This document shows positions 7,935-22,432 of a stretch of 46,517 nucleotides of DNA, in pieces (position 1 is the stretch's first letter; every line of letters begins with the position of its first letter). The notes under the pieces were generated by a model, which saw only the letters and a program-made list of their open reading frames with translations, was not told where the DNA came from and ran no database searches. The DNA lies in contig PFPL01000030.1 in the NCBI GenBank assembly GCA_002793035.1, positions 1-46,517 of the forward strand, read 5' to 3'. Origin of the DNA: Candidatus Magasanikbacteria bacterium CG_4_10_14_0_2_um_filter_33_14 (GTDB lineage: Bacteria; Patescibacteriota; Patescibacteriia; Magasanikbacterales; UBA922). A program made the position numbers and the translations under genes.

Positions 7935-8471
7935 TCAGCGTACCACATTCTCTACATAATCAACTGTCGAATGCAAAAGTTGTAAAGCTTGTGGTAGGAG
8001 AGGCAAAAAGATAGAAGCAATACTACTCAAGATTGGTGCCAATACTGAATGAGCCAAACCTGTCATGATTTTTTCAGACAATGGAATTCTCTCTACAAAA
8101 TATACAAAAAGACCAACACTAAGAATTCCTTCAATCAAACCAAGTCCCAATCCAAACAAACGATTGAAAGTTTTTACAAAAGGAATGATAGAAATAATCT
8201 TGAAGATTCTATCAATAAACCAAAATAAAACACCAAGGGCACTAGAAATAACAAAAAAAGCAATAATAAACATGAGTACTTTACTAGTATTTAATTGCCA
8301 ACCTGTAAAAGATGTTAGCCAGTTGGCTAAATCTAGATAATATCTACCAGCCAAATAAACACCCAAAAAAGTACCAATAAGAGAACCAAAAGCTCGTACA
8401 AATCCAGACCAAAATCCATAAATACCAAAACCTCCAATAATAATTAAAAAAATAATATCGGTGAAGTTCAT
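7935..8471 (-). CDS. CvpA-like membrane protein
   Basis: N-terminal NFTDIIFLIIIGGFGIYGFWSGFVRAFGSLIG resembles the CvpA family; 4 TMs. Confidence 0.75.
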   Translation of the reverse strand: MNFTDIIFLIIIGGFGIYGFWSGFVRAFGSLIGTFLGVYLAGRYYLDLANWLTSFTGWQLNTSKVLMFIIAFFVISSALGVLFWFIDRIFKIISIIPFVKTFNRLFGLGLGLIEGILSVGLFVYFVERIPLSEKIMTGLAHSVLAPILSSIASIFLPLLPQALQLLHSTVDYVENVVR

Positions 8472-8524
8472 ATTATATATAATAAAAAATTATGCTTTTA
8501 TTTTACTATAATTTACTAAAAAAG

Positions 8525-8682
8525 TAAAAAACTACCAATATGGTAGTTTCAAAAGATTTGAGCTACGGTGGACGGACAAGCTCAATTTATATCAGGGAGA
8601 GCTCATACTTCCTTGTTAGGTTTCCCCGCCTCCCAGGAAGGAGACACCTACCCTAATTCATTGGCCTGTCCGTCCACCGGAC
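8525..8682 (-). ncRNA. Candidate structured ncRNA A with own promoter and terminator
   Basis: No ORF; 13-bp perfect closing stem 8566-8578/8667-8679; minus promoter TTGACT(8710-8715)-N17-TATATT(8687-8692); minus terminator AAACTACC-ATATT-GGTAGTTTTTTACTTTTT. Confidence 0.65.
8529..8551 (-). terminator. Intrinsic terminator of ncRNA A
   Basis: AAACTACC/GGTAGTTT stem followed by T-rich tract on minus. Confidence 0.7.
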
Positions 8683-8686
8683 ACAT

Positions 8687-8715
8687 AATATAATACATTT
8701 TGTTTATAAAGTCAA
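8687..8715 (-). promoter_or_regulatory. Sigma-70-type promoter for ncRNA A
   Basis: TTGACT - 17 nt - TATATT on minus strand, start ~7 nt before the closing stem. Confidence 0.7.
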
Positions 8716-8804: not shown

Positions 8805-10331
8805 TTATTTTTCAAGTCTAGGAAACAATATTTCAGCTTTCTTTATTTCACTTCCTTCTTTTAATTTTCCCCAAATCATCTCTTCTTCTAGAGTTCCTAC
8901 TTCTGTAATTCCTAGTTGGGTCAATATTTTGTTTGCAGTTTCAGGGATAATAGGCAAAATCAATATAGCAATAAGACGCAAACTTTCCACCAAAGTATAA
9001 AGTAGATTTGAGATATCTTCACCATTTTTTGCTTTTTCCCAAGGCTTTTCTACGGAAATAAGAGAATCCAATTTTCCTACAAGTTCATTTATTAATTTTA
9101 CAGTTTCTTCAAAATCAAAATTATCGAAACTATCCAAATATGTTTGCAAAAACTTTAATTCGTGATTTTCTTCTTTATTCCTAGCTGGTATTTTAGAATC
9201 ACTATATTTTTCTATCATTGTCAAAACTCTTGAAGTAAGATTACCAATACCATTTACCAGATGAGCGGTATAAAACTCTTCAAAACGAGAAACAGAAAAA
9301 TCTCCATCTTTGGTTGAGGAAACAGCACCAAGTAAATAATAACGGACAGCATCAGTCCCATATTTTTCTACAACATCTTTTGGATCTATAGTATTGCCGA
9401 GTGACTTACTAATTTTTTCTCCTTCATTTGTCAAATAACCATGAATAAATTCAGATGTAGGTAGTTCCAAACCAGCAGACAAAAGCATAGCAGGCCAATA
9501 AAGAACATGGAATTTACCGATACCTTTGCCAATCACATGAACTACTTCCCTACTATCTTGTCCAACTTGATTCCAATATTTTTGAAATAACTCATTATTT
9601 TCTTCACCATAATTTAGCGCTGTAATATAATTGGACAAAGCATCCACCCATACATACATGATTTGGCTTTCATCACCAGGTACTGGCACTCCCCAATTGT
9701 GAGCACGCTTGACACTACGAGAAATACTAAAGTCTTCCAAGCCACGTTCAATAAAAGCCGACCATTCATTTTTACGAAAGTCTGGGGTAACTTTGATAAT
9801 ATCACTATCCAAAAGTTCTTTTAATTTTTCTTGATAATTTGATAATTTGAAAAACCAATTTTCTTCTTCAACAACTTCTGGTTCAGTCTTATGATCTGGA
9901 CATTTACCATCTTCCAAATCTTCCTCTTTGTAAAAAGCTTCACAACCGACACAATACAGACCTTTGTATTTTCTTTTTTCCAAATCTTCTGATTTGAAAC
10001 TTTGCCAAAGTTTTTTTGCACCTTTGAAATGTCTTTCTTCAGTAGTACGAATAAAATCATCAAATGAAATATTCAAATAATCTTTGAAATTGTAAAAACC
10101 TTTGTAATACTCATCTACGAATTCTTGTACGTCTTTACCTGCTTTTTCTGCTGCCTGCACATTTTTCAAAGAGTTTTCATCTGTACCCGACAAAAAGAAA
10201 ACATCTTTACCCAATAATCTTTGATAACGAGCAACAGCATCGGTTTGAATGTATTCCAAAGCATGACCAATATGTGGTTTACCATTTACATATGGAATAG
10301 CGGTGGAAATGTAATATTTATTTTTGTTCAT
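8805..10331 (-). CDS. metG: Methionine--tRNA ligase
   Basis: ISTAIPYVNGKPHIGHALEYIQTDAVARY, KISKSLGN (KMSKS), HVIGKGIGKFH. Confidence 0.97.
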   Translation of the reverse strand: MNKNKYYISTAIPYVNGKPHIGHALEYIQTDAVARYQRLLGKDVFFLSGTDENSLKNVQAAEKAGKDVQEFVDEYYKGFYNFKDYLNISFDDFIRTTEERHFKGAKKLWQSFKSEDLEKRKYKGLYCVGCEAFYKEEDLEDGKCPDHKTEPEVVEEENWFFKLSNYQEKLKELLDSDIIKVTPDFRKNEWSAFIERGLEDFSISRSVKRAHNWGVPVPGDESQIMYVWVDALSNYITALNYGEENNELFQKYWNQVGQDSREVVHVIGKGIGKFHVLYWPAMLLSAGLELPTSEFIHGYLTNEGEKISKSLGNTIDPKDVVEKYGTDAVRYYLLGAVSSTKDGDFSVSRFEEFYTAHLVNGIGNLTSRVLTMIEKYSDSKIPARNKEENHELKFLQTYLDSFDNFDFEETVKLINELVGKLDSLISVEKPWEKAKNGEDISNLLYTLVESLRLIAILILPIIPETANKILTQLGITEVGTLEEEMIWGKLKEGSEIKKAEILFPRLEK

Positions 10332-22214: not shown

Positions 22215-22432
22215 ATACCGTGTGTGTAGAAAGAGAGAGAGACAGTCGCTCACCGGGCCCCGTTTTGGCACCATTTTCTCGCCAAACCGGCGCCTGAAAG
22301 GAGGTGATCTTTCAAGCGACAACGTCTCTGTTAATTCTCAAACTCACCAAAGCCCAAGACACAGAGAGAACTGACACTCCTTCTACACACGCGGTTCTCT
22401 CATCAACACCTAAAAACGGTGTTTTTTTATTC
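22215..22432 (+). ncRNA. Candidate structured ncRNA B containing an extended Shine-Dalgarno sequence
   Basis: Outer stem CGTGTGTAGAA/TTCTACACACG; second stem AGAGAC-a-GTCGCT/AGCGAC-aac-GTCTCT; hairpin around GTTTTGGC/GCCAAAC; AAAGGAGGTGATCT at 22297-22310; plus terminator ACACC-TAAAAAC-GGTGT-T7. Confidence 0.6.
22404..22432 (+). terminator. Intrinsic terminator of ncRNA B
   Basis: AACACC-TAAAAAC-GGTGTT followed by T tract on plus only. Confidence 0.7.

Follow-up and report, generated by a model that had tools for sequence, protein, structure and literature searches.

A stand-alone small-RNA gene between metG and cvpA in Magasanikbacteria and its possible role in translation initiation

Between metG and cvpA of Candidatus Magasanikbacteria bacterium CG_4_10_14_0_2_um_filter_33_14 lies a short transcription unit, named here RNA A (Table 1). 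The window, the whole stretch of 46,517 nucleotides that was analysed (contig PFPL01000030.1), carries at this place a promoter, a closing stem that starts with the transcript, a structured interior and an intrinsic terminator. Promoter, 13-bp stem at +1 and terminator all lie exactly where the preliminary description had placed them. The perfectly paired closing stem is prolonged inwards by G-U and further pairs. Transcription probably starts close to position 8680, and the putative terminator hairpin behind metG sets RNA A apart from this upstream gene.

Table 1. Features of the metG-cvpA region in window coordinates
Feature	Position	Strand	Basis or remark
metG, methionyl-tRNA synthetase, upstream gene	8805..10331	-	Pfam PF09334; used as synteny anchor
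Terminator-like hairpin after metG, AAAATGAC..GTCATTTT and T residues	8730..8760	-	Sequence reading; generic terminator hairpin match
RNA A promoter, sigma-70-type, TTGACT-N17-TATATT	8687..8715	-	TTGACT at 8715-8710, TATATT at 8692-8687; TTGAC- and 17-nt spacer kept in congeners
RNA A structured core, about 116 nt, from one arm of the closing stem to the other	8564..8680	-	Counterparts by position in G001-G004
Closing stem 5' arm, CGGTGGACGGACA, 13 bp, start about +1	8667..8679	-	
Closing stem 3' arm, TGTCCGTCCACCG, 13 bp	8566..8578	-	
Pyrimidine stretch UCUCCUUCCU with anti-SD-like CUCCUU, buried in predicted fold	8635..8644	-	
RNA A intrinsic terminator, 10-pair stem-loop (stem 8550-8528) and T run	8519..8550	-	
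cvpA promoter, TTTACT-N17-TAAAAT	8500..8528	-	Conserved in 5/5 genus members
cvpA, CvpA-family (Colicin V production protein) gene, downstream	7935..8471	-	Pfam PF02674, E 7e-22

RNA A, taken as 156 nt, folds with -72.2 kcal/mol against a mean of -42.7 for dinucleotide-shuffled sequences (z -7.4, 0/200). The genome of the window (G000, 1,097,239 bases) was scanned for the combination of promoter, closing stem at +1 and terminator, with the reversed sequence as control. RNA A is the sole match with two promoter mismatches or fewer, whichever stem length between 9 and 13 is required, and the reversed genome gives none, which shows that the pattern is no product of chance. RNA A is a real, stand-alone and hitherto unclassified small-RNA gene. 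The proposal of an independent non-coding RNA gene closed by a 5'-3' stem is supported by this folding, which is controlled for composition, and by the similarly built RNA genes that all four congeners compared have at this locus (see below).

Three interior pairings had been pointed out as a sign of a pseudoknot or switch. All of these crossing pairings are present (TAGGT 8650-8646 with ACCTA 8621-8617, CTTCCT 8640-8635 with AGGAAG 8613-8608, GGGAG 8634-8630 with CTCCC 8599-8595). A pseudoknot or switch finds no support above the chance level, since the 5-mer and 6-mer complementarity within RNA A is near the shuffled level (P 0.058 and 0.41, respectively).

Rfam models gave no match at the RNA A locus, at gathering or at relaxed thresholds. 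Searches with blastn found no homologue among phages or among 95 relatives, where only short chance matches appeared, for example PVDGKANE-motif codons resembling DUF167 genes and stretches inside other genes. A covariance model built from RNA A alone (R2) matched nothing but RNA A over 86 genomes of the order. The literature search returned nothing on non-coding RNAs of Magasanikbacteria or on 6S RNA in the candidate phyla radiation.

Counterparts do emerge by synteny, with metG as anchor. Among named genomes metG finds its best matches in Candidatus Magasanikbacteria, at 82%, 76% and 70% identity, and in a Patescibacteria MAG, at 77%. In each of the four other genus members compared (G001 to G004) the gap between metG and cvpA is occupied by an RNA gene with a TTGACA-N17-(-10) promoter, a 13- to 18-bp closing stem at the opening of the RNA and a terminator. 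From metG to cvpA the elements succeed one another as in the window: first the promoter of the RNA, then its closing stem at +1 and its terminator, and last the promoter of cvpA. In other genera cvpA follows metG directly with no RNA gene between them. Gaps next to translin or metG genes in other genera (L213, L214, L067) hold small stand-alone units with a TTGACA promoter that resemble short protein genes, as if such gaps were regular acceptors of mini-genes.

The RNAs of G001, G002 and G003 can be aligned and share a common structure of 56 pairs, R1, with two closing helices, the first of 14 bp, followed by a P2 hairpin and a P3/P4 arm and arranged as a three-way junction. The tip of the P3/P4 arm is a 7-bp stem bearing the loop CCUCCUU. 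In this alignment 97.6% of the cells are paired and 15 pairs are changed on both sides, against 4.9 in shuffled alignments and 0-5 in slid versions; the closing stem alone accounts for 4 of the double-changed pairs. With only three sequences, two of them nearly identical, this covariation amounts in effect to one deep comparison. The alignment indicates that R1 is a new, covariation-supported family of structured RNAs within one genus. Its covariance model retrieves G001, G002 and G003 only over 86 genomes of the order, and at E<=10 it matches neither RNA A nor the RNA of G004.

Pairwise alignment of RNA A to each congener RNA is no better than with shuffled sequences (P 0.16-0.98), and MAFFT gave no usable alignment of the five locus RNAs, which are too diverged. 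By metG the nearest relative of the window species is G002, whose RNA is of the R1 type; the RNA of the window species must therefore have been replaced or very rapidly rewritten. Proteins flanking the locus are 82-93% identical between species, and nothing else in the region is as poorly conserved as the RNA.

The R1 loop CCUCCUU is the core of the anti-Shine-Dalgarno (anti-SD) sequence found in the 16S rRNA 3' tail, which reads ...GGATCACCTCCTTTC in the genome of the window. This 7-nt loop is invariant in the R1 RNAs, while its stem varies by compensation. The RNA of G004, unrelated in sequence, presents ACCUCCUU in a nearly open loop. Opening the loop costs 0-0.7 kcal/mol in these RNAs, fully open in R1 and nearly so in G004. 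The probability of finding CCUCCUU by chance is about 0.9% in each of the two unrelated RNAs. RNA A has a single CUCCUU, a 6-mer expected by chance with 1.3% probability, which is buried and costs 6.7 kcal/mol to open. Strong 7-mer SD sequences precede 9 of 807 long ORFs in the window genome, starts being chosen by a heuristic, and this rarity would make a CCUCCUU loop selective.

These features are best explained by a regulator of translation, a reading that is moderately supported, being well motivated for the R1 and G004 RNAs and weaker for RNA A. RNA A is an autonomous small-RNA gene, and we propose, tentatively, that its product acts in trans on translation initiation. Its sigma-70 promoter would yield a small RNA of about 116-150 nt plus terminator, and the closing stem, locking the 5' end from the first nucleotides, should shield it from decay. 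The RNA would then pair through its pyrimidine-rich segment with purine-rich SD sites. In the congeners a fast-evolving scaffold displays CCUCCUU in a hairpin loop that could pair with strong SD sites or, alternatively, with a nearby SD-bearing RNA, RNA B. In the window species UCUCCUUCCU is paired internally, so that pairing with SD sites would require refolding or a partner. As RNA A has no detectable homology to the congener RNAs and its CUCCUU is buried, we can only infer an anti-SD function for it.

RNA B was found with a slightly looser version of the scan for promoter, closing stem and terminator, at about 22215-22430 on the plus strand, flanked by genes for a Mur ligase and a translin-family protein. 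It has these three elements, a fold z of -7.4 and no match in Rfam. Its segment GAAAGGAGGUGAUC is an exact 14-nt complement of the 16S 3' tail of the same genome, and the duplex of RNA B with the 15-nt tail reaches -25.2 kcal/mol, a value equalled by 0/2000 shuffles. In the G002 orthologue some letters differ and the complementarity persists (-23.6); the positional counterpart in G004 keeps AAAGGAGGUG (-17.0, P 0.03). The G004 counterpart (L197 10448-10819; L205) is unrelated in sequence, yet it retains AAAGGAGGTG and is closed by a stem of 16 bp. The insert at this position is another one in G001 and G003. A further unit of the window genome (L128, about 4620, minus strand) is 108-112 nt long, closed by an inverted repeat and provided with a weak promoter and a terminator; possibly it represents a third RNA, possibly a small mobile element.

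At the level of the motifs, the RNA A loop can pair, within one species, with the site in RNA B, at -14.5 in G004, -11.3 in G002 and -9.9 in the species of the window. Whole-molecule duplex energies of the two RNAs in G000 and G002 are no better than those of shuffled sequences, which leaves the motif-level pairing alone. The two RNAs might form an antagonistic pair on the ribosome, in which RNA B blocks or parks the 30S subunit and the tail mimics of the RNA A type relieve RNA B or compete with strong SDs, both RNAs keeping the pairing motif while the remainder is rewritten between species. We consider this joint scheme very unlikely.

An RNA A that serves mainly as scaffold or decoy for a protein, within a ribonucleoprotein and with no SD pairing, would make its resemblance to the anti-SD sequence coincidental. 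Such a role fits a motif that is short and buried in an RNA unrelated in sequence to those of the congeners. It has to face the recurrence of CCUCCUU at this locus, where an open loop presents it in G001-G003 and, in an RNA of independent sequence, in G004, and is in our estimate rather unlikely.

The position of the RNA directly upstream of cvpA in the five genomes, on the same strand and with a terminator at its end, would also suit a cis-acting leader of cvpA, a riboswitch or attenuator with the terminator as expression platform. After this terminator, however, cvpA has a separate promoter, conserved throughout the five genomes, which disfavours a cis role for this gene. No antiterminator is evident, and a closing stem of 13-18 bp that forms first is ill suited to switching. 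In such leaders the aptamer is normally the best conserved part, contrary to the RNA at this locus, and metG is followed by cvpA in other genera where the RNA is missing. A leader function is thus distinctly improbable.

The resemblance to 6S RNA noted in the preliminary description is not supported either. On this reading RNA A would be a 6S RNA that has diverged strongly, forming a rod closed at +1 and binding RNA polymerase by mimicking a promoter. The succession of sigma-70 promoter, stem at +1, rod and terminator indeed recurs in the real 6S RNAs found in other genera of the family (L062, L091), and the genus has a vacancy for a 6S RNA because none was found elsewhere in it. Model RF00013, however, gives no score at E 10 at the RNA A locus or anywhere in G000-G004; recognisable 6S RNAs do occur in other genera of the family. 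Clear 6S loci in G024 and G015, two genomes from this family, score 35.9 and 24.2 bits and have promoter, closing stem and typical core. The predicted fold of RNA A has only a 2x4-nt internal loop instead of the large central bubble of 6S RNA, and its sequence has no core of the GUGGGC...CACCCACC type found in the 6S RNAs of the family. The R1 counterparts are three-way junctions, not bubbled rods. We strongly doubt that RNA A is a 6S RNA. In other genera, L062 1501-1650 and L091 1501-1649, both on the minus strand, are genuine 6S RNAs with a terminator that score under Rfam's cut-off.

That the locus holds no RNA gene but an intergenic inverted repeat, of chance or mobile origin, is highly improbable: the stem by itself is a 13-bp inverted repeat and no sequence homologue was found, but promoter, stem and terminator are in register, unique in the genome and matched by counterparts of the same layout with covariation. 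A bacterial signal recognition particle (SRP) RNA, the other likeness raised at the outset, is excluded, as the closed 5'-3' helix, on an RNA of suitable length, is its sole common trait with RNA A, in which domain IV is missing (the preliminary description had not recognised its signature either) and whose locus is matched by neither SRP nor 6S covariance models at relaxed thresholds. RF00169 finds nothing in 39 genomes of the order (control set positive), nor does RF01854 in the genome of the window; the SRP54 M domain (PF02978) is found in 0/20 genomes and in 14/14 controls. The window genome has no GKTTT P loop of the Ffh/FtsY type, all matches being DnaX-like or PilB/GspE-like proteins. 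As sampled in these 39 and 20 genomes, the Magasanikbacteria order of the window seems to lack the SRP pathway.

The regulatory RNAs of Patescibacteria are almost uncharted, and this locus yields the R1 family in one of their genera. It illustrates that an RNA at a fixed locus can alter beyond recognition between species whose neighbouring proteins remain 82-93% identical. RNA A and RNA B together point to RNA control through the SD/anti-SD interaction, in organisms apparently devoid of SRP and, in this genus, of a recognisable 6S RNA.

RNA A belongs to no known RNA family. Small RNAs with C-rich or pyrimidine-rich loops that pair with SD regions are found in staphylococci (Rsa type) and, as a matter of general comparison, differ from RNA A in sequence, structure and lineage. 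The closest parallel is with the alpha-r14 or cuckoo RNAs of Rhizobiales, in which the hairpin loops hold an ultraconserved CCUCCUCCC, the stems beneath them have diverged, and mRNAs are silenced through SD pairing (PMC10746234). One of these RNAs, NfeR1, is Hfq-independent (PMC10746234). RNA A is not a member of the alpha-r14/cuckoo family, with which it shares no homology and which belongs to a different phylum. Cuckoo RNAs consist of three serial hairpins, each with CCUCCUCCC in an open loop, whereas in the congener RNAs a single motif caps a three-way junction that is closed at +1, and RNA A has one buried CUCCUU. Common to the two systems is a stand-alone, terminated small RNA in which the anti-SD motif, CCUCCUCCC in one case and CCUCCUU of the congeners in the other, is fixed in loops while the stems are free to change; in the cuckoo RNAs this organization silences mRNAs by pairing with their SD sequences, a precedent for the role proposed here.
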